From Nephrocerus scutellatus (taxonomy: Eukaryota; Arthropoda; Insecta; Diptera; Pipunculidae), in the NCBI GenBank assembly GCA_947095585.1, contig OX352766.1:20326939-20390938 (forward strand): a stretch of 64,000 nt of DNA. Reading direction: 5' to 3'. Position 1 is the first letter of the stretch; every line of letters begins with the position of its first letter. Made by a program: the position numbers and the translations under genes. Below the pieces are notes generated by a model that worked only from the letters and a program-made list of their open reading frames with translations, did not search any database and had not been told where the DNA came from. Shown here piece by piece: positions 3,632 through 64,000 of the stretch.

Positions 3632-6602
<2,971 letters not shown>

Positions 6603-6656
6603 TAAATTTCGGCGTCATCTTATCTTTGTCTTTTTTAAGACACCACCAAATAAAAA

Positions 6657-21453: not shown

Positions 21454-23000
<1,547 letters not shown>

Positions 23001-23200
23001 NNNNNNNNNNNNNNNNNNNNNNNNNNNNNNNNNNNNNNNNNNNNNNNNNNNNNNNNNNNNNNNNNNNNNNNNNNNNNNNNNNNNNNNNNNNNNNNNNNNN
23101 NNNNNNNNNNNNNNNNNNNNNNNNNNNNNNNNNNNNNNNNNNNNNNNNNNNNNNNNNNNNNNNNNNNNNNNNNNNNNNNNNNNNNNNNNNNNNNNNNNNN
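23001..23200. other. Assembly gap
   Basis: Exactly 200 N. A round number usually means unknown true length. The order and orientation of the histone locus and the satellite array across it are therefore unproven. Confidence 0.98.
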
Positions 23201-23250
23201 AGAAATACTGAGTTGTAGACTATTAGTTGTAGACGATTTTGTGTTGTGTG
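23201..23250 (-). repeat. Inverted 50-bp fragment of the satellite unit at the gap edge
   Basis: This is the exact reverse complement of 23842-23891 in the first unit, joined directly to the normal unit start AAAAATATATATTACT at 23251. Confidence 0.93.
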
Positions 23251-23468
23251 AAAAATATATATTACTATACAAGTAGCTTTTCCCGGGTAGGCAGTTTTAA
23301 GTAATTTAAATTCAAATTTTTAAATTTTACGTTTCCTGGCTTCTCTGGGAACCTTTTGCTTTTCCCTATCACAAAAAATTGTTCCCAGAATCCTTTGGAC
23401 TCACGGAACCTAACAGCATCCTAAATTAATAATTAAAATGTTATTAATTGATATTACATCCAACTAAA

Positions 23469-23548
23469 TATTTGATCTTGAATTGGTTGGCCTCAACCCA
23501 ATTCCTGGTCACATCAAGTTAAACCATACGTTTACACTTGATCAAATA
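23469..23548 (+). other. Nested inverted repeats, possible structured RNA (unit 1; recurs every 2267 bp)
   Basis: TATTTGATC (23469-23477) pairs with GATCAAATA (23540-23548). Inside are GAATTGGTTG with CAACCCAATTC (23480-23489/23494-23504, one bulge) and ATCAAGTTAAAC with GTTTACACTTGAT (23513-23524/23530-23542, one bulge). Together they could form a three-way junction. The third helix competes with the outer stem for three bases. Function unknown. Confidence 0.45.
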
Positions 23549-23582
23549 ATGTCATTTATACACAATAACATTCAATGATGTA

Positions 23583-23607
23583 TGCATGTCCTTACGATAT
23601 ACATGCA
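23583..23607 (+). repeat. Small perfect inverted repeat in satellite unit
   Basis: TGCATGT and ACATGCA flank an 11-base loop. A second one, CCACAT/ATGTGG, lies around 23722-23755. Both recur in all units. Confidence 0.4.
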
Positions 23608-24524
23608 CGCATCACCGAATGTTCACAAATCGACGCGTTGTCTGCAGCTTATTCAGGTATAGATCTTCTCAAAACATCCACACTGGCAGAATATATATTA
23701 TTTTTATATATTATTCGCCACCACATAGGTTTTCATTCCCACTGTCATGTGGTAAAAAAATTATGCTCACGAATTAAGACTACCAGACGGACATCTAAGA
23801 TGTACGCTGGCACTCATAATTCTTAAATTACTTCTCGAAAAACACACAACACAAAATCGTCTACAACTAATAGTCTACAACTCAGTATTTCTGGGTATTT
23901 GCCGCTGCAAAACTAGACACAATTAGCGCATGGCGCCCACACCAAAACACACAGGCTGTCCTTCTTAAAAGCAATGCTTCGATCATGTATGCATATCTTC
24001 AACCCTTATCGCGTTTGCATTTTGCAACGTACAAGGATAGATACTCAGCCTAGCTTCGACACAAGATATCATCACAGATATCATTCAAGTCTCAACAACA
24101 AAACGATACACTCGTTTTCCGCGTGTGTTAGGTGTGATCAACAACCAAGTTTTTCTCGTTATTTAAACTTATCCAAAATCACAGTTACAAATAGCATGTT
24201 CGGTGTCCAAGTCTTTTGTTTCTTAAAACAGACATGGCTCCTTTAGTTACACTATCTCAGTGATAAACAGTGTTGTGAAAATTATATATTTGGTTTTAAA
24301 AAACATGAAAGAAAGGAAAAAACTAACCACATTGGACGTCAGGATTTAAAACACAAAAATATCCAATAAATTCAACACCTCAAAAATGCATGGTATGTTA
24401 TCTAATATATATTTTTTATGGTATTACATATTTAAACCCATATATTACACTTTAATTACACACCCTTCACCCTATGTCTTGGTTTCGTACCAAATCAGAC
24501 CCTTCCCAACTCAGGCCGAGTAAA

Positions 24525-24569
24525 GCTCGCTGATGAGACCTCGTGGTGGAGGTCGAAAACGTTCCGAGC
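24525..24569 (+). ncRNA. Hammerhead self-cleaving ribozyme motif, type I, satellite unit 1
   Basis: All conserved parts are present. Stem I is GCTCG (24525-24529) with CGAGC (24565-24569). The core is CTGATGA (24530-24536). Stem II is GACCTC/GAGGTC (24537-24542/24549-24554), closed by loop GTGGTG, with the required G10.1-C11.1 pair. GAAA follows (24555-24558). Stem III is minimal, AACGTT, with A15.1-U16.1, and the cleavage triplet is TTC, predicting cleavage after C24564. This is the standard architecture of animal satellite hammerheads with very short helix III. An alternative hairpin CGAG-TAAAG-CTCG (24517-24529) would compete for the stem I 5' strand. Copies begin at 24525 + 2267n (n = 0-17); 17 keep the core and stem II intact, and unit 15 is altered. 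Cleavage activity is inferred. Confidence 0.85.
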
Positions 24570-24576
24570 CACCAAA

Positions 24577-24595
24577 AAAGCAACTTAGTTGCTTT
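24577..24595 (+). other. Perfect 8-bp hairpin just after the ribozyme
   Basis: AAAGCAAC-TTA-GTTGCTTT begins 12 bases after the predicted cleavage site and is followed by A-rich sequence. A second hairpin, TCCGT/ACGGA, lies at 24627-24641. They could shape the 5' end of the cleaved monomer. Present in every unit. Confidence 0.5.
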
Positions 24596-24831
24596 AAAAA
24601 AACCCTTTACGGGACTAGGAAAATCTTCCGTCTTAAACGGATGATTAACAAATATACGGCCTATCTGTCTGCCTCTTAAGATATCACATACTCTTACATT
24701 TGTCATTATTAATTATTTATTTATTACTATTACTATATTTTTGCATTTAACTTATACTACATAAAATTTTCATCTCATTAACCATATTCTTATATAATCA
24801 TATAATATGGTTACAATTATACAAATCTTGA

Positions 24832-25186
24832 AATCTAAACCTATTCTAAATCAAAACCTAAATCTAAATCTAAATCTATTTCTAAATCTAATTCTAAATC
24901 TAAACCTATTCTAATTCCAAACCTATTATAAATCTAAATCTATATCTTAATCTAAATCTAAACCTAAATCTAAATCTAAACCGAAATCTCAATCTAAACC
25001 TAATTCTAAATCTGAATCTATAAATCTAAACCTCAATCTATATCTAAATCTAAACCAAAATCTAAGTCTGAACCCAACTCTAAATCTAAACCAAAACCTA
25101 AATCTAAATCTAAAGCTAAATCTATTTCTAAATCTTAAACAAAACCTACACCTAAATCTAAACTTATTCTAAAACTAAATCTATAT
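24832..25186 (+). repeat. Degenerate TCTAAA/CCTAAA hexamer tract, unit 1
   Basis: About 355 bases made almost wholly of six-base steps with consensus (T/C)CTAAA, interrupted by single-base changes (TATTTCTAAA, CAATCTAAA, CCGAAA). The complementary strand reads TTTAGA/TTTAGG. It recurs with the same pattern of errors in every unit, so it is old relative to the array amplification. Confidence 0.9.
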
Positions 25187-25201
25187 GTTATTCTCAACTG
25201 G

Positions 25202-25517
25202 ATACCATGGTTGTGGAACCAAAAAACCCACAAACCATCTGGTATAAAACTTTCGTTTGTCGCAATCAGGTTAGCACGAGGGCACCACAAAAAGGGCCCC
25301 CGTAGGATGAAAAAAGTAGCTGCCTGGTGTGTGGACCTTCCACGGGGGAATACATTACTTGATGTACTCCCCTTTGGGAATACATTGCCAGAGTCATCAC
25401 ACACCCAGGACCCTTCTTAAAGGCCTTGGACGTGCTGCAGGTCTACGAATCCCCTTTTGAGGGGGTACACTGCCTGGTCATCAGAACGTCCGGGACCCTT
25501 TACCGCTCACTAAAACG
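25202..25517 (+). other. GC-richer multi-hairpin block at unit end, unit 1
   Basis: Strong inverted repeats in succession: ATACCATGG..TTGTGG with CCACAAACCAT..GGTAT (25202-25245), ACGAGGGC/GCCCCCGT (25276-25303, one mismatch), GGGGAATACAT/ATGTACTCCCC (25345-25372, one mismatch) and CCCC/GGGG (25451-25464). It also contains degenerate direct repeats with the theme TGCCtGgTCATCA...CCgGGACCC near 25310, 25388 and 25471. Small frames here (69 and 89 codons) lie on opposite strands over the same hairpins and look fortuitous. This block could hold a promoter or a folded RNA domain. Confidence 0.55.
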
Positions 25518-28500
25518 AAAAATATATATTACTATACAAGTAGCTTTTCCCGGGTAGGCAGTTTTAAGTAATTTAAATTCAAATTTTTAAATTTTACGTT
25601 TCCTGGCTTCTCTGGGAACCTTTTGCTTTTCCCTATCACAAAAAATTGTTCCCAGAATCCTTTGGACTCACGGAACCTAACAGCATCCTAAATTAATAAT
25701 TAAAATGTTATTAATTGATATTACATCCAACTAAATATTTGATCTTGAATTGGTTGGCCTCAACCCAATTCCTGGTCACATCAAGTTAAACCATACGTTT
25801 ACACTTGATCAAATAATGTCATTTATACACAATAACATTCAATGATGTATGCATGTCCTTACGATATACATGCACGCATCACCGAATGTTCACAAATCGA
25901 CGCGTTGTCTGCAGCTTATTCAGGTATAGATCTTCTCAAAACATCCACACTGGCAGAATATATATTATTTTTATATATTATTCGCCACCACATAGGTTTT
26001 CATTCCCACTGTCATGTGGTAAAAAAATTATGCTCACGAATTAAGACTACCAGACGGACATCTAAGATGTACGCTGGCACTCATAATTCTTAAATTACTT
26101 CTCGAAAAACACACAACACAAAATCGTCTACAACTAATAGTCTACAACTCAGTATTTCTGGGTATTTGCCGCTGCAAAACTAGACACAATTAGCGCATGG
26201 CGCCCACACCAAAACACACAGGCTGTCCTTCTTAAAAGCAATGCTTCGATCATGTATGCATATCTTCAACCCTTATCGCGTTTGCATTTTGCAACGTACA
26301 AGGATAGATACTCAGCCTAGCTTCGACACAAGATATCATCACAGATATCATTCAAGTCTCAACAACAAAACGATACACTCGTTTTCCGCGTGTGTTAGGT
26401 GTGATCAACAACCAAGTTTTTCTCGTTATTTAAACTTATCCAAAATCACAGTTACAAATAGCATGTTCGGTGTCCAAGTCTTTTGTTTCTTAAAACAGAC
26501 ATGGCTCCTTTAGTTACACTATCTCAGTGATAAACAGTGTTGTGAAAATTATATATTTGGTTTTAAAAAACATGAAAGAAAGGAAAAAACTAACCACATT
26601 GGACGTCAGGATTTAAAACACAAAAATATCCAATAAATTCAACACCTCAAAAATGCATGGTATGTTATCTAATATATATTTTTTATGGTATTACATATTT
26701 AAACCCATATATTACACTTTAATTACACACCCTTCACCCTATGTCTTGGTTTCGTACCAAATCAGACCCTTCCCAACTCAGGCCGAGTAAAGCTCGCTGA
26801 TGAGACCTCGTGGTGGAGGTCGAAAACGTTCCGAGCCACCAAAAAAGCAACTTAGTTGCTTTAAAAAAACCCTTTACGGGACTAGGAAAATCTTCCGTCT
26901 TAAACGGATGATTAACAAATATACGGCCTATCTGTCTGCCTCTTAAGATATCACATACTCTTACATTTGTCATTATTAATTATTTATTTATTACTATTAC
27001 TATATTTTTGCATTTAACTTATACTACATAAAATTTTCATCTCATTAACCATATTCTTATATAATCATATAATATGGTTACAATTATACAAATCTTGAAA
27101 TCTAAACCTATTCTAAATCAAAACCTAAATCTAAATCTAAATCTATTTCTAAATCTAATTCTAAATCTAAACCTATTCTAATTCCAAACCTATTATAAAT
27201 CTAAATCTATATCTTAATCTAAATCTAAACCTAAATCTAAATCTAAACCGAAATCTCAATCTAAACCTAATTCTAAATCTGAATCTATAAATCTAAACCT
27301 CAATCTATATCTAAATCTAAACCAAAATCTAAGTCTGAACCCAACTCTAAATCTAAACCAAAACCTAAATCTAAATCTAAAGCTAAATCTATTTCTAAAT
27401 CTTAAACAAAACCTACACCTAAATCTAAACTTATTCTAAAACTAAATCTATATGTTATTCTCAACTGGATACCATGGTTGTGGAACCAAAAAACCCACAA
27501 ACCATCTGGTATAAAACTTTCGTTTGTCGCAATCAGGTTAGCACGAGGGCACCACAAAAAGGGCCCCCGTAGGATGAAAAAAGTAGCTGCCTGGTGTGTG
27601 GACCTTCCACGGGGGAATACATTACTTGATGTACTCCCCTTTGGGAATACATTGCCAGAGTCATCACACACCCAGGACCCTTCTTAAAGGCCTTGGACGT
27701 GCTGCAGGTCTACGAATCCCCTTTTGAGGGGGTACACTGCCTGGTCATCAGAACGTCCGGGACCCTTTACCGCTCACTAAAACGAAAAATATATATTACT
27801 ATACAAGTAGCTTTTCCCGGGTAGGCAGTTTTAAGTAATTTAAATTCAAATTTTTAAATTTTACGTTTCCTGGCTTCTCTGGGAACCTTTTGCTTTTCCC
27901 TATCACAAAAAATTGTTCCCAGAATCCTTTGGACTCACGGAACCTAACAGCATCCTAAATTAATAATTAAAATGTTATTAATTGATATTACATCCAACTA
28001 AATATTTGATCTTGAATTGGTTGGCCTCAACCCAATTCCTGGTCACATCAAGTTAAACCATACGTTTACACTTGATCAAATAATGTCATTTATACACAAT
28101 AACATTCAATGATGTATGCATGTCCTTACGATATACATGCACGCATCACCGAATGTTCACAAATCGACGCGTTGTCTGCAGCTTATTCAGGTATAGATCT
28201 TCTCAAAACATCCACACTGGCAGAATATATATTATTTTTATATATTATTCGCCACCACATAGGTTTTCATTCCCACTGTCATGTGGTAAAAAAATTATGC
28301 TCACGAATTAAGACTACCAGACGGACATCTAAGATGTACGCTGGCACTCATAATTCTTAAATTACTTCTCGAAAAACACACAACACAAAATCGTCTACAA
28401 CTAATAGTCTACAACTCAGTATTTCTGGGTATTTGCCGCTGCAAAACTAGACACAATTAGCGCATGGCGCCCACACCAAAACACACAGGCTGTCCTTCTT

Positions 28501-31500
28501 AAAAGCAATGCTTCGATCATGTATGCATATCTTCAACCCTTATCGCGTTTGCATTTTGCAACGTACAAGGATAGATACTCAGCCTAGCTTCGACACAAGA
28601 TATCATCACAGATATCATTCAAGTCTCAACAACAAAACGATACACTCGTTTTCCGCGTGTGTTAGGTGTGATCAACAACCAAGTTTTTCTCGTTATTTAA
28701 ACTTATCCAAAATCACAGTTACAAATAGCATGTTCGGTGTCCAAGTCTTTTGTTTCTTAAAACAGACATGGCTCCTTTAGTTACACTATCTCAGTGATAA
28801 ACAGTGTTGTGAAAATTATATATTTGGTTTTAAAAAACATGAAAGAAAGGAAAAAACTAACCACATTGGACGTCAGGATTTAAAACACAAAAATATCCAA
28901 TAAATTCAACACCTCAAAAATGCATGGTATGTTATCTAATATATATTTTTTATGGTATTACATATTTAAACCCATATATTACACTTTAATTACACACCCT
29001 TCACCCTATGTCTTGGTTTCGTACCAAATCAGACCCTTCCCAACTCAGGCCGAGTAAAGCTCGCTGATGAGACCTCGTGGTGGAGGTCGAAAACGTTCCG
29101 AGCCACCAAAAAAGCAACTTAGTTGCTTTAAAAAAACCCTTTACGGGACTAGGAAAATCTTCCGTCTTAAACGGATGATTAACAAATATACGGCCTATCT
29201 GTCTGCCTCTTAAGATATCACATACTCTTACATTTGTCATTATTAATTATTTATTTATTACTATTACTATATTTTTGCATTTAACTTATACTACATAAAA
29301 TTTTCATCTCATTAACCATATTCTTATATAATCATATAATATGGTTACAATTATACAAATCTTGAAATCTAAACCTATTCTAAATCAAAACCTAAATCTA
29401 AATCTAAATCTATTTCTAAATCTAATTCTAAATCTAAACCTATTCTAATTCCAAACCTATTATAAATCTAAATCTATATCTTAATCTAAATCTAAACCTA
29501 AATCTAAATCTAAACCGAAATCTCAATCTAAACCTAATTCTAAATCTGAATCTATAAATCTAAACCTCAATCTATATCTAAATCTAAACCAAAATCTAAG
29601 TCTGAACCCAACTCTAAATCTAAACCAAAACCTAAATCTAAATCTAAAGCTAAATCTATTTCTAAATCTTAAACAAAACCTACACCTAAATCTAAACTTA
29701 TTCTAAAACTAAATCTATATGTTATTCTCAACTGGATACCATGGTTGTGGAACCAAAAAACCCACAAACCATCTGGTATAAAACTTTCGTTTGTCGCAAT
29801 CAGGTTAGCACGAGGGCACCACAAAAAGGGCCCCCGTAGGATGAAAAAAGTAGCTGCCTGGTGTGTGGACCTTCCACGGGGGAATACATTACTTGATGTA
29901 CTCCCCTTTGGGAATACATTGCCAGAGTCATCACACACCCAGGACCCTTCTTAAAGGCCTTGGACGTGCTGCAGGTCTACGAATCCCCTTTTGAGGGGGT
30001 ACACTGCCTGGTCATCAGAACGTCCGGGACCCTTTACCGCTCACTAAAACGAAAAATATATATTACTATACAAGTAGCTTTTCCCGGGTAGGCAGTTTTA
30101 AGTAATTTAAATTCAAATTTTTAAATTTTACGTTTCCTGGCTTCTCTGGGAACCTTTTGCTTTTCCCTATCACAAAAAATTGTTCCCAGAATCCTTTGGA
30201 CTCACGGAACCTAACAGCATCCTAAATTAATAATTAAAATGTTATTAATTGATATTACATCCAACTAAATATTTGATCTTGAATTGGTTGGCCTCAACCC
30301 AATTCCTGGTCACATCAAGTTAAACCATACGTTTACACTTGATCAAATAATGTCATTTATACACAATAACATTCAATGATGTATGCATGTCCTTACGATA
30401 TACATGCACGCATCACCGAATGTTCACAAATCGACGCGTTGTCTGCAGCTTATTCAGGTATAGATCTTCTCAAAACATCCACACTGGCAGAATATATATT
30501 ATTTTTATATATTATTCGCCACCACATAGGTTTTCATTCCCACTGTCATGTGGTAAAAAAATTATGCTCACGAATTAAGACTACCAGACGGACATCTAAG
30601 ATGTACGCTGGCACTCATAATTCTTAAATTACTTCTCGAAAAACACACAACACAAAATCGTCTACAACTAATAGTCTACAACTCAGTATTTCTGGGTATT
30701 TGCCGCTGCAAAACTAGACACAATTAGCGCATGGCGCCCACACCAAAACACACAGGCTGTCCTTCTTAAAAGCAATGCTTCGATCATGTATGCATATCTT
30801 CAACCCTTATCGCGTTTGCATTTTGCAACGTACAAGGATAGATACTCAGCCTAGCTTCGACACAAGATATCATCACAGATATCATTCAAGTCTCAACAAC
30901 AAAACGATACACTCGTTTTCCGCGTGTGTTAGGTGTGATCAACAACCAAGTTTTTCTCGTTATTTAAACTTATCCAAAATCACAGTTACAAATAGCATGT
31001 TCGGTGTCCAAGTCTTTTGTTTCTTAAAACAGACATGGCTCCTTTAGTTACACTATCTCAGTGATAAACAGTGTTGTGAAAATTATATATTTGGTTTTAA
31101 AAAACATGAAAGAAAGGAAAAAACTAACCACATTGGACGTCAGGATTTAAAACACAAAAATATCCAATAAATTCAACACCTCAAAAATGCATGGTATGTT
31201 ATCTAATATATATTTTTTATGGTATTACATATTTAAACCCATATATTACACTTTAATTACACACCCTTCACCCTATGTCTTGGTTTCGTACCAAATCAGA
31301 CCCTTCCCAACTCAGGCCGAGTAAAGCTCGCTGATGAGACCTCGTGGTGGAGGTCGAAAACGTTCCGAGCCACCAAAAAAGCAACTTAGTTGCTTTAAAA
31401 AAACCCTTTACGGGACTAGGAAAATCTTCCGTCTTAAACGGATGATTAACAAATATACGGCCTATCTGTCTGCCTCTTAAGATATCACATACTCTTACAT

Positions 31501-34500
31501 TTGTCATTATTAATTATTTATTTATTACTATTACTATATTTTTGCATTTAACTTATACTACATAAAATTTTCATCTCATTAACCATATTCTTATATAATC
31601 ATATAATATGGTTACAATTATACAAATCTTGAAATCTAAACCTATTCTAAATCAAAACCTAAATCTAAATCTAAATCTATTTCTAAATCTAATTCTAAAT
31701 CTAAACCTATTCTAATTCCAAACCTATTATAAATCTAAATCTATATCTTAATCTAAATCTAAACCTAAATCTAAATCTAAACCGAAATCTCAATCTAAAC
31801 CTAATTCTAAATCTGAATCTATAAATCTAAACCTCAATCTATATCTAAATCTAAACCAAAATCTAAGTCTGAACCCAACTCTAAATCTAAACCAAAACCT
31901 AAATCTAAATCTAAAGCTAAATCTATTTCTAAATCTTAAACAAAACCTACACCTAAATCTAAACTTATTCTAAAACTAAATCTATATGTTATTCTCAACT
32001 GGATACCATGGTTGTGGAACCAAAAAACCCACAAACCATCTGGTATAAAACTTTCGTTTGTCGCAATCAGGTTAGCACGAGGGCACCACAAAAAGGGCCC
32101 CCGTAGGATGAAAAAAGTAGCTGCCTGGTGTGTGGACCTTCCACGGGGGAATACATTACTTGATGTACTCCCCTTTGGGAATACATTGCCAGAGTCATCA
32201 CACACCCAGGACCCTTCTTAAAGGCCTTGGACGTGCTGCAGGTCTACGAATCCCCTTTTGAGGGGGTACACTGCCTGGTCATCAGAACGTCCGGGACCCT
32301 TTACCGCTCACTAAAACGAAAAATATATATTACTATACAAGTAGCTTTTCCCGGGTAGGCAGTTTTAAGTAATTTAAATTCAAATTTTTAAATTTTACGT
32401 TTCCTGGCTTCTCTGGGAACCTTTTGCTTTTCCCTATCACAAAAAATTGTTCCCAGAATCCTTTGGACTCACGGAACCTAACAGCATCCTAAATTAATAA
32501 TTAAAATGTTATTAATTGATATTACATCCAACTAAATATTTGATCTTGAATTGGTTGGCCTCAACCCAATTCCTGGTCACATCAAGTTAAACCATACGTT
32601 TACACTTGATCAAATAATGTCATTTATACACAATAACATTCAATGATGTATGCATGTCCTTACGATATACATGCACGCATCACCGAATGTTCACAAATCG
32701 ACGCGTTGTCTGCAGCTTATTCAGGTATAGATCTTCTCAAAACATCCACACTGGCAGAATATATATTATTTTTATATATTATTCGCCACCACATAGGTTT
32801 TCATTCCCACTGTCATGTGGTAAAAAAATTATGCTCACGAATTAAGACTACCAGACGGACATCTAAGATGTACGCTGGCACTCATAATTCTTAAATTACT
32901 TCTCGAAAAACACACAACACAAAATCGTCTACAACTAATAGTCTACAACTCAGTATTTCTGGGTATTTGCCGCTGCAAAACTAGACACAATTAGCGCATG
33001 GCGCCCACACCAAAACACACAGGCTGTCCTTCTTAAAAGCAATGCTTCGATCATGTATGCATATCTTCAACCCTTATCGCGTTTGCATTTTGCAACGTAC
33101 AAGGATAGATACTCAGCCTAGCTTCGACACAAGATATCATCACAGATATCATTCAAGTCTCAACAACAAAACGATACACTCGTTTTCCGCGTGTGTTAGG
33201 TGTGATCAACAACCAAGTTTTTCTCGTTATTTAAACTTATCCAAAATCACAGTTACAAATAGCATGTTCGGTGTCCAAGTCTTTTGTTTCTTAAAACAGA
33301 CATGGCTCCTTTAGTTACACTATCTCAGTGATAAACAGTGTTGTGAAAATTATATATTTGGTTTTAAAAAACATGAAAGAAAGGAAAAAACTAACCACAT
33401 TGGACGTCAGGATTTAAAACACAAAAATATCCAATAAATTCAACACCTCAAAAATGCATGGTATGTTATCTAATATATATTTTTTATGGTATTACATATT
33501 TAAACCCATATATTACACTTTAATTACACACCCTTCACCCTATGTCTTGGTTTCGTACCAAATCAGACCCTTCCCAACTCAGGCCGAGTAAAGCTCGCTG
33601 ATGAGACCTCGTGGTGGAGGTCGAAAACGTTCCGAGCCACCAAAAAAGCAACTTAGTTGCTTTAAAAAAACCCTTTACGGGACTAGGAAAATCTTCCGTC
33701 TTAAACGGATGATTAACAAATATACGGCCTATCTGTCTGCCTCTTAAGATATCACATACTCTTACATTTGTCATTATTAATTATTTATTTATTACTATTA
33801 CTATATTTTTGCATTTAACTTATACTACATAAAATTTTCATCTCATTAACCATATTCTTATATAATCATATAATATGGTTACAATTATACAAATCTTGAA
33901 ATCTAAACCTATTCTAAATCAAAACCTAAATCTAAATCTAAATCTATTTCTAAATCTAATTCTAAATCTAAACCTATTCTAATTCCAAACCTATTATAAA
34001 TCTAAATCTATATCTTAATCTAAATCTAAACCTAAATCTAAATCTAAACCGAAATCTCAATCTAAACCTAATTCTAAATCTGAATCTATAAATCTAAACC
34101 TCAATCTATATCTAAATCTAAACCAAAATCTAAGTCTGAACCCAACTCTAAATCTAAACCAAAACCTAAATCTAAATCTAAAGCTAAATCTATTTCTAAA
34201 TCTTAAACAAAACCTACACCTAAATCTAAACTTATTCTAAAACTAAATCTATATGTTATTCTCAACTGGATACCATGGTTGTGGAACCAAAAAACCCACA
34301 AACCATCTGGTATAAAACTTTCGTTTGTCGCAATCAGGTTAGCACGAGGGCACCACAAAAAGGGCCCCCGTAGGATGAAAAAAGTAGCTGCCTGGTGTGT
34401 GGACCTTCCACGGGGGAATACATTACTTGATGTACTCCCCTTTGGGAATACATTGCCAGAGTCATCACACACCCAGGACCCTTCTTAAAGGCCTTGGACG

Positions 34501-37500
34501 TGCTGCAGGTCTACGAATCCCCTTTTGAGGGGGTACACTGCCTGGTCATCAGAACGTCCGGGACCCTTTACCGCTCACTAAAACGAAAAATATATATTAC
34601 TATACAAGTAGCTTTTCCCGGGTAGGCAGTTTTAAGTAATTTAAATTCAAATTTTTAAATTTTACGTTTCCTGGCTTCTCTGGGAACCTTTTGCTTTTCC
34701 CTGTCACAAAAAATTGTTCCCAGAATCCTTTGGACTCACGGAACCTAACAGCATCCTAAATTAATAATTAAAATGTTATTAATTGATATTACATCCAACT
34801 AAATATTTGATCTTGAATTGGTTGGCCTCAACCCAATTCCTGGTCACATCAAGTTAAACCATACGTTTACACTTGATCAAATAATGTCATTTATACACAA
34901 TAACATTCAATGATGTATGCATGTCCTTACGATATACATGCACGCATCACCGAATGTTCACAAATCGACGCGTTGTCTGCAGCTTATTCAGGTATAGATC
35001 TTCTCAAAACATCCACACTGGCAGAATATATATTATTTTTATATATTATTCGCCACCACATAGGTTTTCATTCCCACTGTCATGTGGTAAAAAAATTATG
35101 CTCACGAATTAAGACTACCAGACGGACATCTAAGATGTACGCTGGCACTCATAATTCTTAAATTACTTCTCGAAAAACACACAACACAAAATCGTCTACA
35201 ACTAATAGTCTACAACTCAGTATTTCTGGGTATTTGCCGCTGCAAAACTAGACACAATTAGCGCATGGCGCCCACACCAAAACACACAGGCTGTCCTTCT
35301 TAAAAGCAATGCTTCGATCATGTATGCATATCTTCAACCCTTATCGCGTTTGCATTTTGCAACGTACAAGGATAGATACTCAGCCTAGCTTCGACACAAG
35401 ATATCATCACAGATATCATTCAAGTCTCAACAACAAAACGATACACTCGTTTTCCGCGTGTGTTAGGTGTGATCAACAACCAAGTTTTTCTCGTTATTTA
35501 AACTTATCCAAAATCACAGTTACAAATAGCATGTTCGGTGTCCAAGTCTTTTGTTTCTTAAAACAGACATGGCTCCTTTAGTTACACTATCTCAGTGATA
35601 AACAGTGTTGTGAAAATTATATATTTGGTTTTAAAAAACATGAAAGAAAGGAAAAAACTAACCACATTGGACGTCAGGATTTAAAACACAAAAATATCCA
35701 ATAAATTCAACACCTCAAAAATGCATGGTATGTTATCTAATATATATTTTTTATGGTATTACATATTTAAACCCATATATTACACTTTAATTACACACCC
35801 TTCACCCTATGTCTTGGTTTCGTACCAAATCAGACCCTTCCCAACTCAGGCCGAGTAAAGCTCGCTGATGAGACCTCGTGGTGGAGGTCGAAAACGTTCC
35901 GAGCCACCAAAAAAGCAACTTAGTTGCTTTAAAAAAACCCTTTACGGGACTAGGAAAATCTTCCGTCTTAAACGGATGATTAACAAATATACGGCCTATC
36001 TGTCTGCCTCTTAAGATATCACATACTCTTACATTTGTCATTATTAATTATTTATTTATTACTATTACTATATTTTTGCATTTAACTTATACTACATAAA
36101 ATTTTCATCTCATTAACCATATTCTTATATAATCATATAATATGGTTACAATTATACAAATCTTGAAATCTAAACCTATTCTAAATCAAAACCTAAATCT
36201 AAATCTAAATCTATTTCTAAATCTAATTCTAAATCTAAACCTATTCTAATTCCAAACCTATTATAAATCTAAATCTATATCTTAATCTAAATCTAAACCT
36301 AAATCTAAATCTAAACCGAAATCTCAATCTAAACCTAATTCTAAATCTGAATCTATAAATCTAAACCTCAATCTATATCTAAATCTAAACCAAAATCTAA
36401 GTCTGAACCCAACTCTAAATCTAAACCAAAACCTAAATCTAAATCTAAAGCTAAATCTATTTCTAAATCTTAAACAAAACCTACACCTAAATCTAAACTT
36501 ATTCTAAAACTAAATCTATATGTTATTCTCAACTGGATACCATGGTTGTGGAACCAAAAAACCCACAAACCATCTGGTATAAAACTTTCGTTTGTCGCAA
36601 TCAGGTTAGCACGAGGGCACCACAAAAAGGGCCCCCGTAGGATGAAAAAAGTAGCTGCCTGGTGTGTGGACCTTCCACGGGGGAATACATTACTTGATGT
36701 ACTCCCCTTTGGGAATACATTGCCAGAGTCATCACACACCCAGGACCCTTCTTAAAGGCCTTGGACGTGCTGCAGGTCTACGAATCCCCTTTTGAGGGGG
36801 TACACTGCCTGGTCATCAGAACGTCCGGGACCCTTTACCGCTCACTAAAACGAAAAATATATATTACTATACAAGTAGCTTTTCCCGGGTAGGCAGTTTT
36901 AAGTAATTTAAATTCAAATTTTTAAATTTTACGTTTCCTGGCTTCTCTGGGAACCTTTTGCTTTTCCCTATCACAAAAAATTGTTCCCAGAATCCTTTGG
37001 ACTCACGGAACCTAACAGCATCCTAAATTAATAATTAAAATGTTATTAATTGATATTACATCCAACTAAATATTTGATCTTGAATTGGTTGGCCTCAACC
37101 CAATTCCTGGTCACATCAAGTTAAACCATACGTTTACACTTGATCAAATAATGTCATTTATACACAATAACATTCAATGATGTATGCATGTCCTTACGAT
37201 ATACATGCACGCATCACCGAATGTTCACAAATCGACGCGTTGTCTGCAGCTTATTCAGGTATAGATCTTCTCAAAACATCCACACTGGCAGAATATATAT
37301 TATTTTTATATATTATTCGCCACCACATAGGTTTTCATTCCCACTGTCATGTGGTAAAAAAATTATGCTCACGAATTAAGACTACCAGACGGACATCTAA
37401 GATGTACGCTGGCACTCATAATTCTTAAATTACTTCTCGAAAAACACACAACACAAAATCGTCTACAACTAATAGTCTACAACTCAGTATTTCTGGGTAT

Positions 37501-52500: not shown

Positions 52501-55500
52501 CCCCCGTAGGATGAAAAAAGTAGCTGCCTGGTGTGTGGACCTTCCACGGGGGAATACATTACTTGATGTACTCCCCTTTGGGAATACATTGCCAGAGTCA
52601 TCACACACCCAGGACCCTTCTTAAAGGCCTTGGACGTGCTGCAGGTCTACGAATCCCCTTTTGAGGGGGTACACTGCCTGGTCATCAGAACGTCCGGGAC
52701 CCTTTACCGCTCACTAAAACGAAAAATATATATTACTATACAAGTAGCTTTTCCCGGGTAGGCAGTTTTAAGTAATTTAAATTCAAATTTTTAAATTTTA
52801 CGTTTCCTGGCTTCTCTGGGAACCTTTTGCTTTTCCCTATCACAAAAAATTGTTCCCAGAATCCTTTGGACTCACGGAACCTAACAGCATCCTAAATTAA
52901 TAATTAAAATGTTATTAATTGATATTACATCCAACTAAATATTTGATCTTGAATTGGTTGGCCTCAACCCAATTCCTGGTCACATCAAGTTAAACCATAC
53001 GTTTACACTTGATCAAATAATGTCATTTATACACAATAACATTCAATGATGTATGCATGTCCTTACGATATACATGCACGCATCACCGAATGTTCACAAA
53101 TCGACGCGTTGTCTGCAGCTTATTCAGGTATAGATCTTCTCAAAACATCCACACTGGCAGAATATATATTATTTTTATATATTATTCGCCACCACATAGG
53201 TTTTCATTCCCACTGTCATGTGGTAAAAAAATTATGCTCACGAATTAAGACTACCAGACGGACATCTAAGATGTACGCTGGCACTCATAATTCTTAAATT
53301 ACTTCTCGAAAAACACACAACACAAAATCGTCTACAACTAATAGTCTACAACTCAGTATTTCTGGGTATTTGCCGCTGCAAAACTAGACACAATTAGCGC
53401 ATGGCGCCCACACCAAAACACACAGGCTGTCCTTCTTAAAAGCAATGCTTCGATCATGTATGCATATCTTCAACCCTTATCGCGTTTGCATTTTGCAACG
53501 TACAAGGATAGATACTCAGCCTAGCTTCGACACAAGATATCATCACAGATATCATTCAAGTCTCAACAACAAAACGATACACTCGTTTTCCGCGTGTGTT
53601 AGGTGTGATCAACAACCAAGTTTTTCTCGTTATTTAAACTTATCCAAAATCACAGTTACAAATAGCATGTTCGGTGTCCAAGTCTTTTGTTTCTTAAAAC
53701 AGACATGGCTCCTTTAGTTACACTATCTCAGTGATAAACAGTGTTGTGAAAATTATATATTTGGTTTTAAAAAACATGAAAGAAAGGAAAAAACTAACCA
53801 CATTGGACGTCAGGATTTAAAACACAAAAATATCCAATAAATTCAACACCTCAAAAATGCATGGTATGTTATCTAATATATATTTTTTATGGTATTACAT
53901 ATTTAAACCCATATATTACACTTTAATTACACACCCTTCACCCTATGTCTTGGTTTCGTACCAAATCAGACCCTTCCCAACTCAGGCCGAGTAAAGCTCG
54001 CTGATGAGACCTCGTGGTGGAGGTCGAAAACGTTCCGAGCCACCAAAAAAGCAACTTAGTTGCTTTAAAAAAACCCTTTACGGGACTAGGAAAATCTTCC
54101 GTCTTAAACGGATGATTAACAAATATACGGCCTATCTGTCTGCCTCTTAAGATATCACATACTCTTACATTTGTCATTATTAATTATTTATTTATTACTA
54201 TTACTATATTTTTGCATTTAACTTATACTACATAAAATTTTCATCTCATTAACCATATTCTTATATAATCATATAATATGGTTACAATTATACAAATCTT
54301 GAAATCTAAACCTATTCTAAATCAAAACCTAAATCTAAATCTAAATCTATTTCTAAATCTAATTCTAAATCTAAACCTATTCTAATTCCAAACCTATTAT
54401 AAATCTAAATCTATATCTTAATCTAAATCTAAACCTAAATCTAAATCTAAACCGAAATCTCAATCTAAACCTAATTCTAAATCTGAATCTATAAATCTAA
54501 ACCTCAATCTATATCTAAATCTAAACCAAAATCTAAGTCTGAACCCAACTCTAAATCTAAACCAAAACCTAAATCTAAATCTAAAGCTAAATCTATTTCT
54601 AAATCTTAAACAAAACCTACACCTAAATCTAAACTTATTCTAAAACTAAATCTATATGTTATTCTCAACTGGATACCATGGTTGTGGAACCAAAAAACCC
54701 ACAAACCATCTGGTATAAAACTTTCGTTTGTCGCAATCAGGTTAGCACGAGGGCACCACAAAAAGGGCCCCCGTAGGATGAAAAAAGTAGCTGCCTGGTG
54801 TGTGGACCTTCCACGGGGGAATACATTACTTGATGTACTCCCCTTTGGGAATACATTGCCAGAGTCATCACACACCCAGGACCCTTCTTAAAGGCCTTGG
54901 ACGTGCTGCAGGTCTACGAATCCCCTTTTGAGGGGGTACACTGCCTGGTCATCAGAACGTCCGGGACCCTTTACCGCTCACTAAAACGAAAAATATATAT
55001 TACTATACAAGTAGCTTTTCCCGGGTAGGCAGTTTTAAGTAATTTAAATTCAAATTTTTAAATTTTACGTTTCCTGGCTTCTCTGGGAACCTTTTGCTTT
55101 TCCCTATCACAAAAAATTGTTCCCAGAATCCTTTGGACTCACGGAACCTAACAGCATCCTAAATTAATAATTAAAATGTTATTAATTGATATTACATCCA
55201 ACTAAATATTTGATCTTGAATTGGTTGGCCTCAACCCAATTCCTGGTCACATCAAGTTAAACCATACGTTTACACTTGATCAAATAATGTCATTTATACA
55301 CAATAACATTCAATGATGTATGCATGTCCTTACGATATACATGCACGCATCACCGAATGTTCACAAATCGACGCGTTGTCTGCAGCTTATTCAGGTATAG
55401 ATCTTCTCAAAACATCCACACTGGCAGAATATATATTATTTTTATATATTATTCGCCACCACATAGGTTTTCATTCCCACTGTCATGTGGTAAAAAAATT

Positions 55501-56262
55501 ATGCTCACGAATTAAGACTACCAGACGGACATCTAAGATGTACGCTGGCACTCATAATTCTTAAATTACTTCTCGAAAAACACACAACACAAAATCGTCT
55601 ACAACTAATAGTCTACAACTCAGTATTTCTGGGTATTTGCCGCTGCAAAACTAGACACAATTAGCGCATGGCGCCCACACCAAAACACACAGGCTGTCCT
55701 TCTTAAAAGCAATGCTTCGATCATGTATGCATATCTTCAACCCTTATCGCGTTTGCATTTTGCAACGTACAAGGATAGATACTCAGCCTAGCTTCGACAC
55801 AAGATATCATCACAGATATCATTCAAGTCTCAACAACAAAACGATACACTCGTTTTCCGCGTGTGTTAGGTGTGATCAACAACCAAGTTTTTCTCGTTAT
55901 TTAAACTTATCCAAAATCACAGTTACAAATAGCATGTTCGGTGTCCAAGTCTTTTGTTTCTTAAAACAGACATGGCTCCTTTAGTTACACTATCTCAGTG
56001 ATAAACAGTGTTGTGAAAATTATATATTTGGTTTTAAAAAACATGAAAGAAAGGAAAAAACTAACCACATTGGACGTCAGGATTTAAAACACAAAAATAT
56101 CCAATAAATTCAACACCTCAAAAATGCATGGTATGTTATCTAATATATATTTTTTATGGTATTACATATTTAAACCCATATATTACACTTTAATTACACA
56201 CCCTTCACCCTATGTCTTGGTTTCGTACCAAATCAGACCCTTCCCAACTCAGGCCGAGTAAA

Positions 56263-56307
56263 GCTCGCTGATGACACCTCGTGGTGGAGGTCGAAAACGT
56301 TCCGAGC
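56263..56307 (+). ncRNA. Variant hammerhead in satellite unit 15
   Basis: Same motif as in unit 1, except that C replaces G at 56275. This is position 10.1, which pairs with C11.1 at the base of stem II next to the catalytic core. The change makes a C-C mismatch at a pair known to matter strongly for cleavage, so this copy is predicted to be slow or inactive. Confidence 0.8.
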
Positions 56308-59300
56308 CACCAAAAAAGCAACTTAGTTGCTTTAAAAAAACCCTTTACGGGACTAGGAAAATCTTCCGTCTTAAACGGATGATTAACAAATATACGGCCT
56401 ATCTGTCTGCCTCTTAAGATATCACATACTCTTACATTTGTCATTATTAATTATTTATTTATTACTATTACTATATTTTTGCATTTAACTTATACTACAT
56501 AAAATTTTCATCTCATTAACCATATTCTTATATAATCATATAATATGGTTACAATTATACAAATCTTGAAATCTAAACCTATTCTAAATCAAAACCTAAA
56601 TCTAAATCTAAATCTATTTCTAAATCTAATTCTAAATCTAAACCTATTCTAATTCCAAACCTATTATAAATCTAAATCTATATCTTAATCTAAATCTAAA
56701 CCTAAATCTAAATCTAAACCGAAATCTCAATCTAAACCTAATTCTAAATCTGAATCTATAAATCTAAACCTCAATCTATATCTAAATCTAAACCAAAATC
56801 TAAGTCTGAACCCAACTCTAAATCTAAACCAAAACCTAAATCTAAATCTAAAGCTAAATCTATTTCTAAATCTTAAACAAAACCTACACCTAAATCTAAA
56901 CTTATTCTAAAACTAAATCTATATGTTATTCTCAACTGGATACCATGGTTGTGGAACCAAAAAACCCACAAACCATCTGGTATAAAACTTTCGTTTGTCG
57001 CAATCAGGTTAGCACGAGGGCACCACAAAAAGGGCCCCCGTAGGATGAAAAAAGTAGCTGCCTGGTGTGTGGACCTTCCACGGGGGAATACATTACTTGA
57101 TGTACTCCCCTTTGGGAATACATTGCCAGAGTCATCACACACCCAGGACCCTTCTTAAAGGCCTTGGACGTGCTGCAGGTCTACGAATCCCCTTTTGAGG
57201 GGGTACACTGCCTGGTCATCAGAACGTCCGGGACCCTTTACCGCTCACTAAAACGAAAAATATATATTACTATACAAGTAGCTTTTCCCGGGTAGGCAGT
57301 TTTAAGTAATTTAAATTCAAATTTTTAAATTTTACGTTTCCTGGCTTCTCTGGGAACCTTTTGCTTTTCCCTATCACAAAAAATTGTTCCCAGAATCCTT
57401 TGGACTCACGGAACCTAACAGCATCCTAAATTAATAATTAAAATGTTATTAATTGATATTACATCCAACTAAATATTTGATCTTGAATTGGTTGGCCTCA
57501 ACCCAATTCCTGGTCACATCAAGTTAAACCATACGTTTACACTTGATCAAATAATGTCATTTATACACAATAACATTCAATGATGTATGCATGTCCTTAC
57601 GATATACATGCACGCATCACCGAATGTTCACAAATCGACGCGTTGTCTGCAGCTTATTCAGGTATAGATCTTCTCAAAACATCCACACTGGCAGAATATA
57701 TATTATTTTTATATATTATTCGCCACCACATAGGTTTTCATTCCCACTGTCATGTGGTAAAAAAATTATGCTCACGAATTAAGACTACCAGACGGACATC
57801 TAAGATGTACGCTGGCACTCATAATTCTTAAATTACTTCTCGAAAAACACACAACACAAAATCGTCTACAACTAATAGTCTACAACTCAGTATTTCTGGG
57901 TATTTGCCGCTGCAAAACTAGACACAATTAGCGCATGGCGCCCACACCAAAACACACAGGCTGTCCTTCTTAAAAGCAATGCTTCGATCATGTATGCATA
58001 TCTTCAACCCTTATCGCGTTTGCATTTTGCAACGTACAAGGATAGATACTCAGCCTAGCTTCGACACAAGATATCATCACAGATATCATTCAAGTCTCAA
58101 CAACAAAACGATACACTCGTTTTCCGCGTGTGTTAGGTGTGATCAACAACCAAGTTTTTCTCGTTATTTAAACTTATCCAAAATCACAGTTACAAATAGC
58201 ATGTTCGGTGTCCAAGTCTTTTGTTTCTTAAAACAGACATGGCTCCTTTAGTTACACTATCTCAGTGATAAACAGTGTTGTGAAAATTATATATTTGGTT
58301 TTAAAAAACATGAAAGAAAGGAAAAAACTAACCACATTGGACGTCAGGATTTAAAACACAAAAATATCCAATAAATTCAACACCTCAAAAATGCATGGTA
58401 TGTTATCTAATATATATTTTTTATGGTATTACATATTTAAACCCATATATTACACTTTAATTACACACCCTTCACCCTATGTCTTGGTTTCGTACCAAAT
58501 CAGACCCTTCCCAACTCAGGCCGAGTAAAGCTCGCTGATGAGACCTCGTGGTGGAGGTCGAAAACGTTCCGAGCCACCAAAAAAGCAACTTAGTTGCTTT
58601 AAAAAAACCCTTTACGGGACTAGGAAAATCTTCCGTCTTAAACGGATGATTAACAAATATACGGCCTATCTGTCTGCCTCTTAAGATATCACATACTCTT
58701 ACATTTGTCATTATTAATTATTTATTTATTACTATTACTATATTTTTGCATTTAACTTATACTACATAAAATTTTCATCTCATTAACCATATTCTTATAT
58801 AATCATATAATATGGTTACAATTATACAAATCTTGAAATCTAAACCTATTCTAAATCAAAACCTAAATCTAAATCTAAATCTATTTCTAAATCTAATTCT
58901 AAATCTAAACCTATTCTAATTCCAAACCTATTATAAATCTAAATCTATATCTTAATCTAAATCTAAACCTAAATCTAAATCTAAACCGAAATCTCAATCT
59001 AAACCTAATTCTAAATCTGAATCTATAAATCTAAACCTCAATCTATATCTAAATCTAAACCAAAATCTAAGTCTGAACCCAACTCTAAATCTAAACCAAA
59101 ACCTAAATCTAAATCTAAAGCTAAATCTATTTCTAAATCTTAAACAAAACCTACACCTAAATCTAAACTTATTCTAAAACTAAATCTATATGTTATTCTC
59201 AACTGGATACCATGGTTGTGGAACCAAAAAACCCACAAACCATCTGGTATAAAACTTTCGTTTGTCGCAATCAGGTTAGCACGAGGGCACCACAAAAAGG

Positions 59301-61789
59301 GCCCCCGTAGGATGAAAAAAGTAGCTGCCTGGTGTGTGGACCTTCCACGGGGGAATACATTACTTGATGTACTCCCCTTTGGGAATACATTGCCAGAGTC
59401 ATCACACACCCAGGACCCTTCTTAAAGGCCTTGGACGTGCTGCAGGTCTACGAATCCCCTTTTGAGGGGGTACACTGCCTGGTCATCAGAACGTCCGGGA
59501 CCCTTTACCGCTCACTAAAACGAAAAATATATATTACTATACAAGTAGCTTTTCCCGGGTAGGCAGTTTTAAGTAATTTAAATTCAAATTTTTAAATTTT
59601 ACGTTTCCTGGCTTCTCTGGGAACCTTTTGCTTTTCCCTATCACAAAAAATTGTTCCCAGAATCCTTTGGACTCACGGAACCTAACAGCATCCTAAATTA
59701 ATAATTAAAATGTTATTAATTGATATTACATCCAACTAAATATTTGATCTTGAATTGGTTGGCCTCAACCCAATTCCTGGTCACATCAAGTTAAACCATA
59801 CGTTTACACTTGATCAAATAATGTCATTTATACACAATAACATTCAATGATGTATGCATGTCCTTACGATATACATGCACGCATCACCGAATGTTCACAA
59901 ATCGACGCGTTGTCTGCAGCTTATTCAGGTATAGATCTTCTCAAAACATCCACACTGGCAGAATATATATTATTTTTATATATTATTCGCCACCACATAG
60001 GTTTTCATTCCCACTGTCATGTGGTAAAAAAATTATGCTCACGAATTAAGACTACCAGACGGACATCTAAGATGTACGCTGGCACTCATAATTCTTAAAT
60101 TACTTCTCGAAAAACACACAACACAAAATCGTCTACAACTAATAGTCTACAACTCAGTATTTCTGGGTATTTGCCGCTGCAAAACTAGACACAATTAGCG
60201 CATGGCGCCCACACCAAAACACACAGGCTGTCCTTCTTAAAAGCAATGCTTCGATCATGTATGCATATCTTCAACCCTTATCGCGTTTGCATTTTGCAAC
60301 GTACAAGGATAGATACTCAGCCTAGCTTCGACACAAGATATCATCACAGATATCATTCAAGTCTCAACAACAAAACGATACACTCGTTTTCCGCGTGTGT
60401 TAGGTGTGATCAACAACCAAGTTTTTCTCGTTATTTAAACTTATCCAAAATCACAGTTACAAATAGCATGTTCGGTGTCCAAGTCTTTTGTTTCTTAAAA
60501 CAGACATGGCTCCTTTAGTTACACTATCTCAGTGATAAACAGTGTTGTGAAAATTATATATTTGGTTTTAAAAAACATGAAAGAAAGGAAAAAACTAACC
60601 ACATTGGACGTCAGGATTTAAAACACAAAAATATCCAATAAATTCAACACCTCAAAAATGCATGGTATGTTATCTAATATATATTTTTTATGGTATTACA
60701 TATTTAAACCCATATATTACACTTTAATTACACACCCTTCACCCTATGTCTTGGTTTCGTACCAAATCAGACCCTTCCCAACTCAGGCCGAGTAAAGCTC
60801 GCTGATGAGACCTCGTGGTGGAGGTCGAAAACGTTCCGAGCCACCAAAAAAGCAACTTAGTTGCTTTAAAAAAACCCTTTACGGGACTAGGAAAATCTTC
60901 CGTCTTAAACGGATGATTAACAAATATACGGCCTATCTGTCTGCCTCTTAAGATATCACATACTCTTACATTTGTCATTATTAATTATTTATTTATTACT
61001 ATTACTATATTTTTGCATTTAACTTATACTACATAAAATTTTCATCTCATTAACCATATTCTTATATAATCATATAATATGGTTACAATTATACAAATCT
61101 TGAAATCTAAACCTATTCTAAATCAAAACCTAAATCTAAATCTAAATCTATTTCTAAATCTAATTCTAAATCTAAACCTATTCTAATTCCAAACCTATTA
61201 TAAATCTAAATCTATATCTTAATCTAAATCTAAACCTAAATCTAAATCTAAACCGAAATCTCAATCTAAACCTAATTCTAAATCTGAATCTATAAATCTA
61301 AACCTCAATCTATATCTAAATCTAAACCAAAATCTAAGTCTGAACCCAACTCTAAATCTAAACCAAAACCTAAATCTAAATCTAAAGCTAAATCTATTTC
61401 TAAATCTTAAACAAAACCTACACCTAAATCTAAACTTATTCTAAAACTAAATCTATATGTTATTCTCAACTGGATACCATGGTTGTGGAACCAAAAAACC
61501 CACAAACCATCTGGTATAAAACTTTCGTTTGTCGCAATCAGGTTAGCACGAGGGCACCACAAAAAGGGCCCCCGTAGGATGAAAAAAGTAGCTGCCTGGT
61601 GTGTGGACCTTCCACGGGGGAATACATTACTTGATGTACTCCCCTTTGGGAATACATTGCCAGAGTCATCACACACCCAGGACCCTTCTTAAAGGCCTTG
61701 GACGTGCTGCAGGTCTACGAATCCCCTTTTGAGGGGGTACACTGCCTGGTCATCAGAACGTCCGGGACCCTTTACCGCTCACTAAAACG

Positions 61790-64000
61790 AAAAATATATA
61801 TTACTATACAAGTAGCTTTTCCCGGGTAGGCAGTTTTAAGTAATTTAAATTCAAATTTTTAAATTTTACGTTTCCTGGCTTCTCTGGGAACCTTTTGCTT
61901 TTCCCTATCACAAAAAATTGTTCCCAGAATCCTTTGGACTCACGGAACCTAACAGCATCCTAAATTAATAATTAAAATGTTATTAATTGATATTACATCC
62001 AACTAAATATTTGATCTTGAATTGGTTGGCCTCAACCCAATTCCTGGTCACATCAAGTTAAACCATACGTTTACACTTGATCAAATAATGTCATTTATAC
62101 ACAATAACATTCAATGATGTATGCATGTCCTTACGATATACATGCACGCATCACCGAATGTTCACAAATCGACGCGTTGTCTGCAGCTTATTCAGGTATA
62201 GATCTTCTCAAAACATCCACACTGGCAGAATATATATTATTTTTATATATTATTCGCCACCACATAGGTTTTCATTCCCACTGTCATGTGGTAAAAAAAT
62301 TATGCTCACGAATTAAGACTACCAGACGGACATCTAAGATGTACGCTGGCACTCATAATTCTTAAATTACTTCTCGAAAAACACACAACACAAAATCGTC
62401 TACAACTAATAGTCTACAACTCAGTATTTCTGGGTATTTGCCGCTGCAAAACTAGACACAATTAGCGCATGGCGCCCACACCAAAACACACAGGCTGTCC
62501 TTCTTAAAAGCAATGCTTCGATCATGTATGCATATCTTCAACCCTTATCGCGTTTGCATTTTGCAACGTACAAGGATAGATACTCAGCCTAGCTTCGACA
62601 CAAGATATCATCACAGATATCATTCAAGTCTCAACAACAAAACGATACACTCGTTTTCCGCGTGTGTTAGGTGTGATCAACAACCAAGTTTTTCTCGTTA
62701 TTTAAACTTATCCAAAATCACAGTTACAAATAGCATGTTCGGTGTCCAAGTCTTTTGTTTCTTAAAACAGACATGGCTCCTTTAGTTACACTATCTCAGT
62801 GATAAACAGTGTTGTGAAAATTATATATTTGGTTTTAAAAAACATGAAAGAAAGGAAAAAACTAACCACATTGGACGTCAGGATTTAAAACACAAAAATA
62901 TCCAATAAATTCAACACCTCAAAAATGCATGGTATGTTATCTAATATATATTTTTTATGGTATTACATATTTAAACCCATATATTACACTTTAATTACAC
63001 ACCCTTCACCCTATGTCTTGGTTTCGTACCAAATCAGACCCTTCCCAACTCAGGCCGAGTAAAGCTCGCTGATGAGACCTCGTGGTGGAGGTCGAAAACG
63101 TTCCGAGCCACCAAAAAAGCAACTTAGTTGCTTTAAAAAAACCCTTTACGGGACTAGGAAAATCTTCCGTCTTAAACGGATGATTAACAAATATACGGCC
63201 TATCTGTCTGCCTCTTAAGATATCACATACTCTTACATTTGTCATTATTAATTATTTATTTATTACTATTACTATATTTTTGCATTTAACTTATACTACA
63301 TAAAATTTTCATCTCATTAACCATATTCTTATATAATCATATAATATGGTTACAATTATACAAATCTTGAAATCTAAACCTATTCTAAATCAAAACCTAA
63401 ATCTAAATCTAAATCTATTTCTAAATCTAATTCTAAATCTAAACCTATTCTAATTCCAAACCTATTATAAATCTAAATCTATATCTTAATCTAAATCTAA
63501 ACCTAAATCTAAATCTAAACCGAAATCTCAATCTAAACCTAATTCTAAATCTGAATCTATAAATCTAAACCTCAATCTATATCTAAATCTAAACCAAAAT
63601 CTAAGTCTGAACCCAACTCTAAATCTAAACCAAAACCTAAATCTAAATCTAAAGCTAAATCTATTTCTAAATCTTAAACAAAACCTACACCTAAATCTAA
63701 ACTTATTCTAAAACTAAATCTATATGTTATTCTCAACTGGATACCATGGTTGTGGAACCAAAAAACCCACAAACCATCTGGTATAAAACTTTCGTTTGTC
63801 GCAATCAGGTTAGCACGAGGGCACCACAAAAAGGGCCCCCGTAGGATGAAAAAAGTAGCTGCCTGGTGTGTGGACCTTCCACGGGGGAATACATTACTTG
63901 ATGTACTCCCCTTTGGGAATACATTGCCAGAGTCATCACACACCCAGGACCCTTCTTAAAGGCCTTGGACGTGCTGCAGGTCTACGAATCCCCTTTTGAG
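61790..64000 (+). repeat. Last, incomplete satellite unit (unit 18)
   Basis: 2211 of 2267 bases are present. The cut is made by the window edge, so the array continues to the right. Its hammerhead starts at 63064. Confidence 0.95.

Follow-up and report, generated by a model that had tools for sequence, protein, structure and literature searches.

Can a satellite DNA with a repeat unit of more than 2 kb carry a hammerhead ribozyme (HHR) that is still able to cut? The question is raised by a 64,000-nt stretch of the genome of the fly Nephrocerus scutellatus (contig OX352766.1, positions 20,326,939 to 20,390,938; hereafter the window), in which an array of about 18 tandem 2267-bp units in direct orientation, delimited by identity at a lag of 2267, extends from 23251 to the window's end. 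An initial annotation of the window, made from the letters alone, had claimed that every unit of this satellite holds an HHR, spaced exactly 2267 bp apart from 24525 onwards, and that a unit of this length would be unusual in a fly. Our analysis indicates that the intact units probably encode a type I, newt-like hammerhead able to cut, judging from its bases and predicted pairing. That the hammerhead also processes satellite RNA in the fly is a more tentative proposal, which we regard as possible but doubtful.

The motif, GCUCG-CUGAUGA-GACCUC-GUGGUG-GAGGUC-GAAA-ACGU-UC-CGAGC, contains every invariant hammerhead base (positions in Table 1, numbered by the established hammerhead scheme), and the core letters stand exactly where the initial annotation had placed them. 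The two base-paired stems it had described were also recovered, with 5 bp in stem I and 6 bp in stem II, and both ends of the motif lie within stem I, which is the type I arrangement. Within one copy, stem III does not reach two pairs and consists of a single A-U pair capped by the tetraloop ACGU; as accepted amphibian HHRs also have a one-pair stem III, its shortness is no bar to membership of the hammerhead family. Thus the structure first proposed holds for the core and for stems I and II, while it had left unmentioned the one-pair stem III with its palindrome and a likely pseudoknot between stems I and II.

All 18 sites predicted at 24525+2267n (n=0..17) are present at the exact spacing, with one HHR per tandem unit. 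Seventeen of them are identical over 50 nt and satisfy the invariant core (CUGANGA...GAAA...UH with the pairs G10.1-C11.1 and A15.1-U16.1), so that the claim of an intact ribozyme in every unit stands for 17 of 18 copies. The exception, copy n=14 (56263), has C in place of G at core position G10.1 (56275) and no compensating change, whereby the G10.1-C11.1 pair is lost; this is either a true substitution or a base-call error. A loose HHR descriptor found no match on the unit's minus strand or on either strand of window positions 1-23000.

As the copies are in effect one sequence, their repetition is no independent evidence, and it is the single copy that counts. The rate of such motifs by chance was estimated by simulating 3700 Mb of one-strand sequence under a first-order Markov model that had the strand-averaged composition of the unit, using a descriptor and stem thresholds that were fixed after the motif had been seen. 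The simulation yielded 761 loose matches (stems of at least 4 bp; 153 of these with a short stem III) and 48 matches with at least 5 bp in stem I and at least 6 bp in stem II, among which nine had a short stem III. The last class corresponds to 0.0024 matches per Mb per strand, or ~1.1e-5 per unit for both strands, before the pseudoknot is considered. When 142,375 dinucleotide shuffles of the unit were scanned on both strands, 188 strand-scans matched the loose form and 18 had stems of at least 5 and at least 6 bp with any stem III (~1.3e-4 per unit).

Beyond the core, loop II carries the sequence UGGUG (24544-24548), the exact complement of the CACCA that lies directly 3′ of stem I (5 bp; duplex energy −5.9 kcal/mol). 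Among 200,000 random loop/flank draws from the unit, 0.97% gave a pairing as good (at least 5 bp). This complementarity could represent a putative pseudoknot that docks stems I and II together. In type II hammerheads, loop I is described as pairing with nucleotides just 3′ of stem II (Perreault et al. 2011, PMC3088659), and we infer that the loop II/flank geometry seen here would be the type I counterpart of that arrangement. According to the same source, about 40% of natural HHR representatives, across all three types, have a predicted stem I-II pseudoknot, and shortening that of a type II construct lowered the rate of cutting ~20-fold and then >100-fold (PMC3088659).

The palindrome AACGUU, which spans the tetraloop and its closing pair, could give two copies a shared stem III of 6 bp; the self-duplex of the bare hexamer is calculated at −3.5 kcal/mol, with 2267 nt between one copy and the next. 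The axolotl/newt form also has a stem III of one pair and a palindromic tetraloop; it is reported to be poorly active alone, and efficient cleavage of amphibian HHRs is reported for dimers (PMC7229834). With such a stem III, cleavage here should therefore need or prefer two copies per transcript.

Stems I and II form part of the lowest-energy fold in contexts of 93, 241 and 501 nt, and they appeared again at the cleavage-site junction when the 2267-nt unit was folded as a circle. The lowest-energy HHR folds carry extra short pairing within the core, which improves on the open core by 0.6 kcal/mol. All of these folding energies ignore the pseudoknot, Mg2+ and tertiary contacts.

Several results weigh against a hammerhead that cuts. 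In the 123-nt context an alternative fold is better by 0.9 kcal/mol, and with the core held open the nested HHR takes up 4.2% of the ensemble in 93 nt, 0.2% in 123 nt, 2.8% in 241 nt and 6.7% in 501 nt. The fold is modestly more stable than shuffled sequences (z −2.03, −1.33, −1.88 and −2.68 in four stretches), and when two copies of 45 or 93 nt were cofolded, the AACGUU/AACGUU helix was not part of the lowest-energy structure. One of the three substitutions among the complete units falls in the HHR core (56275). The + strand of the unit is rich in A+T and poor in G (A 780, C 499, G 290, T 698), and its 290 G against 499 C are unlike the strongly transcribed sense strands of many animals. To these may be added the repeat-type HHRs of Aedes and Nematostella, which fit the consensus but did not cleave in the in vitro assay used, and for which Perreault et al. 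suggest that dimers may be needed (PMC3088659).

A covariance search, which the initial annotation had put forward as a check, likewise went against the hammerhead, as no Rfam hammerhead model reached its gathering cut-off. Hammerhead_1 (RF00163) scored 15.5 bits against a cut-off of 34 (E 0.23 when 101 bases were compared with 4227 families) and was absent from the matches of a relaxed scan of 2301 bases; if this model is asked alone, 0.23/4227 scaled to the unit gives, by our own arithmetic, roughly 1e-3. RAGATH-1-hammerhead (RF03152) scored 22.3 bits against 56.3 under relaxed thresholds (E 1 in 2301 bases), a score that includes a small hairpin 5′ of stem I (24509-24521) and falls to 16.7 bits in a stretch without most of that hairpin. 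Membership of the RAGATH-1 family was rejected, since the score is far under the cut-off and, in that model, stem III is long and stem II has one annotated pair. The covariance support for a hammerhead is thus suggestive and not significant in a blind scan.

In the mechanism that we favour, the + strand would be transcribed across two or more units, and cutting would occur mainly after adjacent copies had paired through AACGUU/AACGUU into a double hammerhead with a shared 6-bp stem III. Each hammerhead would then cut after C24564 (+2267n), releasing 2267-nt monomers with 5′-OH and 2′,3′-cyclic-phosphate ends; a tRNA ligase, for example RtcB, could close these monomers into circles, and RtcB is reported to have circularised axolotl and mussel retrozyme monomers in vitro (PMC7229834). 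At its boldest, the proposal would make this the animal hammerhead satellite with the longest unit known, in which double hammerheads acting across 2.27 kb yield unit-length circular RNAs about 10 times the size of other animal retrozyme circles, and in which an independently evolved newt-like stem III is combined with a tertiary clamp of the pseudoknot type; taken as a whole, we consider this improbable.

How the motif came to stand in every unit can be explained in other ways. A serious contender, though one we hold to be somewhat short of probable, is that the hammerhead is real by descent and a passenger. It would have been deposited by a short retrozyme or by a Penelope-like element, of which the pLTRs bear minimal hammerheads lacking stem III, in a sequence amplified only later as a satellite, with the array having no role for transcription or cutting. 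Such a passenger may still cut, so this explanation overlaps with that of a cutting hammerhead, and the two differ on RNA processing and not on the fold. All available Penelope-like elements are reported to have minimal HHRs, usually without helix III (PMC6155905). In one of these elements, mutations of the HHR are described as leaving insertion in vitro unaffected, and its RNA-seq data as containing no reads that start or end at the cut site (PMC11167929). The near-identical units and the orientation switch at 23250 also resemble amplification at the DNA level. Yet no match to reverse transcriptase or GIY-YIG was found in the five longest of the unit's 47 open reading frames (ORFs), although a non-coding remnant would be compatible with this, and the pseudoknot complementarity goes beyond the minimal Penelope-like form as described.

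The other two explanations are less likely. If the satellite were a large animal retrozyme, circular RNAs of 2267 nt would be reverse-transcribed by a resident retroelement and re-inserted as tandem arrays; pieces of a non-long-terminal-repeat (non-LTR) element are present in the histone region. Rolling-circle copying would be expected to yield the head-to-tail units, but the 2267-bp unit is ~6-13 times the size of the reported retrozyme circular RNAs (170-400 nt; PMC7229834), and the overall folding of its + strand is weak (−0.204 kcal/mol per nt), whereas those circles are described as highly self-paired; we therefore hold this origin to be unlikely. Lowest in our ranking stands the formation by chance of a hammerhead-like stretch in one ancestral unit that was then copied. 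It would account for copies that are in effect one sequence and for sub-threshold Rfam scores, and at the simulated rate a 500-Mb genome should hold about two matches, a number that drops to ~0.02 with the pseudoknot. Against it speak the rate of ~1e-5 per unit, before the pseudoknot, and the location of the match in a tandem repeat, which is a frequent setting of animal type I HHRs (PMC7229834). A hammerhead able to cut remains the reading we prefer.

The array itself is highly uniform, with three substitutions and four distinct sequences among the 17 complete, gap-free units. This uniformity means recent amplification, strong homogenisation or smoothing of the copies by the assembly, and the near-identity is most simply attributed to amplification and homogenisation at the DNA level rather than through RNA. 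A histone gene cluster with repeats of 7953/7954 bp occupies the left of the window; it is separated from the array by an assembly gap of 200 N (23001-23200), so the adjacency of histone genes and satellite depends on scaffolding. The 50 bases right beside the gap (23201-23250) are the reverse complement of the unit's 26110-26159, hence the array appears to switch orientation there, through either a true inversion or an assembly fault. The unit has no significant similarity to window positions 1-23000 (best BLASTN E 0.53).

Table 1. Coordinates of the hammerhead motif, its parts and copies, and the satellite array (window positions)
Feature	Position	Strand	Remark
Stem I, 5′ strand GCUCG	24525..24529	+	
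Invariant core CUGAUGA	24530..24536	+	
Stem II GACCUC/GAGGUC	24537..24554	+	G10.1 (24537)-C11.1 (24554) at base; loop II GUGGUG 24543-24548
Invariant GAAA	24555..24558	+	A15.1 = 24558
Palindromic tetraloop ACGU, U16.1 (24563), C17 (24564)	24559..24564	+	predicted cleavage after 24564
Stem I, 3′ strand CGAGC	24565..24569	+	
CACCA, complement of loop II UGGUG	24570..24574	+	putative stem I-II pseudoknot; 5 Watson-Crick bp, −5.9 kcal/mol
Small hairpin ACUC-AGGCC-GAGU	24509..24521	+	5′ of stem I
HHR copy n=1	26792..26841	+	identical over 50 nt
HHR copy n=2	29059..29108	+	identical
HHR copy n=3	31326..31375	+	identical
HHR copy n=4	33593..33642	+	identical
HHR copy n=5	35860..35909	+	identical
HHR copy n=6	38127..38176	+	identical
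HHR copy n=7	40394..40443	+	identical
HHR copy n=8	42661..42710	+	identical
HHR copy n=9	44928..44977	+	identical
HHR copy n=10	47195..47244	+	identical
HHR copy n=11	49462..49511	+	identical
HHR copy n=12	51729..51778	+	identical
HHR copy n=13	53996..54045	+	identical
HHR copy n=14	56263..56312	+	G10.1 to C at 56275
HHR copy n=15	58530..58579	+	identical
HHR copy n=16	60797..60846	+	identical
HHR copy n=17	63064..63113	+	identical
Single repeat unit (2267 bp), starting at HHR stem I	24525..26791	+	
Tandem array of 2267-bp units	23251..64000	+	from lag-2267 identity; runs past the window's end

Outside the hammerhead, each unit contains 353 bp of degenerate (AAATCT)n repeats (24831-25183 in the first unit of Table 1) and a stretch that is well structured as + strand RNA (25230-25515; minimum free energy −96.8 kcal/mol, z −2.38, with 2 of 200 shuffles as low) that has no Rfam match at gathering level. 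The unit is overlapped by 47 stop-to-stop ORFs of at least 30 amino acids, with repeats at the edges included, and for the five longest of these (109, 93, 93, 85 and 81 amino acids) no match to a Pfam family exceeded the cut-off, one of them giving a chance-level match to AFG1_ATPase (E 0.14). For two translated ORFs of the unit, no candidate homologue was found among 5.8 billion proteins. Searches of contig collections, which have little bearing on animals, returned no match to the exact HHR pattern (viral and prokaryote collections) or to a hairpin from the unit (viral collection). The letters TTCCCAACT at 24503-24511, upstream of the HHR, resemble what we take to be the core of the Drosophila small nuclear RNA (snRNA) promoter element PSEA, and newt satellite 2 has a promoter of the snRNA type; as the agreement extends over nine letters only, neither point is used in the argument.

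In the histone region, pieces of a non-LTR retroelement, which we label Jockey-like, lie at 1493-6304 and 21954-22766. A CCHC knuckle and reverse transcriptase exceed the Pfam cut-off over 1496-3034 and 4167-5408, and a partial reverse transcriptase at 21957-22766 falls under it. An H2B ORF (6315-6605) lacks the N-terminal part found in the copy at 14189-14560 and adjoins a retroelement ORF (5456-6304) on the opposite strand. The best named protein matches of the window's histone H1, among the best 120 of 1354, are from the schizophoran flies Scaptodrosophila, Teleopsis, Stomoxys and Drosophila.

How does this satellite compare with known hammerhead repeats? In the open-access literature, a scope outside which most subscription journals fall, no hammerhead satellite with a unit of more than 2 kb was found, nor any in a schizophoran fly. 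Animal HHR repeats are given as 150-450 bp, with insects listed among the animals that have small HHR repeats (PMC7229834). A type I HHR in a far longer unit, as the initial annotation had recognised, is therefore what the window would add: the 2267-bp unit departs from the few hundred base pairs of newt-type satellites and animal retrozymes. Its verdict of unusual in a fly applies to this length and less to the ribozyme, as HHRs have been published for the mosquito Aedes aegypti (PMC3088659).

The closest likeness is to the newt/axolotl satellite (HHR_Amex1), which also has a type I HHR per tandem unit and a single-pair stem III with a palindromic tetraloop, and for which dimeric cleavage, here predicted by analogy, is reported; its unit, however, is ~330 bp, and its stems I and II meet through conserved loop 1-2 contacts, whereas the contact here resembles a Watson-Crick pseudoknot (PMC7229834). 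The satellite pDo500 of the cave cricket Dolichopoda likewise combines an insect host with an HHR, and for it self-cleavage in vitro, processing to monomers and compensatory changes among species are reported; the unit there is ~500 bp, and the double hammerhead proposed for it shares stems I and II, not III, between strands (PMC2837043). The W elements of Schistosoma (W25.2, W26.2, W27.2 and W36.2) are also satellites with minimal HHRs and a very short stem III, of which three of five tested candidates cleaved, the other two having core or site defects; lengths of 335 and 403 bp are given among the HHR-bearing units there, and other W elements reach 1206 bp (PMC8490949). The repeat-associated HHRs of Aedes aegypti share with ours a dipteran host and a palindromic stem/loop III able to pair in a dimer, but lie in interspersed repeats, and their dimeric stem III is described as 10 bp against 6 bp here (PMC3088659).

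The minimal hammerheads of Penelope-like elements resemble the present one in a stem III that is very short or absent, and differ in that no Penelope-type domain is found in the five longest ORFs of our unit. Dimeric cleavage of these minimal hammerheads is reported, as the title indicates, by Lunse et al. 2017. The role of genomic hammerheads in animal satellites is still little known, and a recently homogenised fly array with a long and mostly featureless unit could show whether the ribozyme acts in the processing of satellite RNA, gives rise to circles or is carried along as a passenger. Self-cleaving satellites are already known and it is the length of the unit that is new; at 2267 bp, against the ~330 bp of the newt/axolotl repeat, it would test the maximal distance at which two hammerheads still cut as a dimer.

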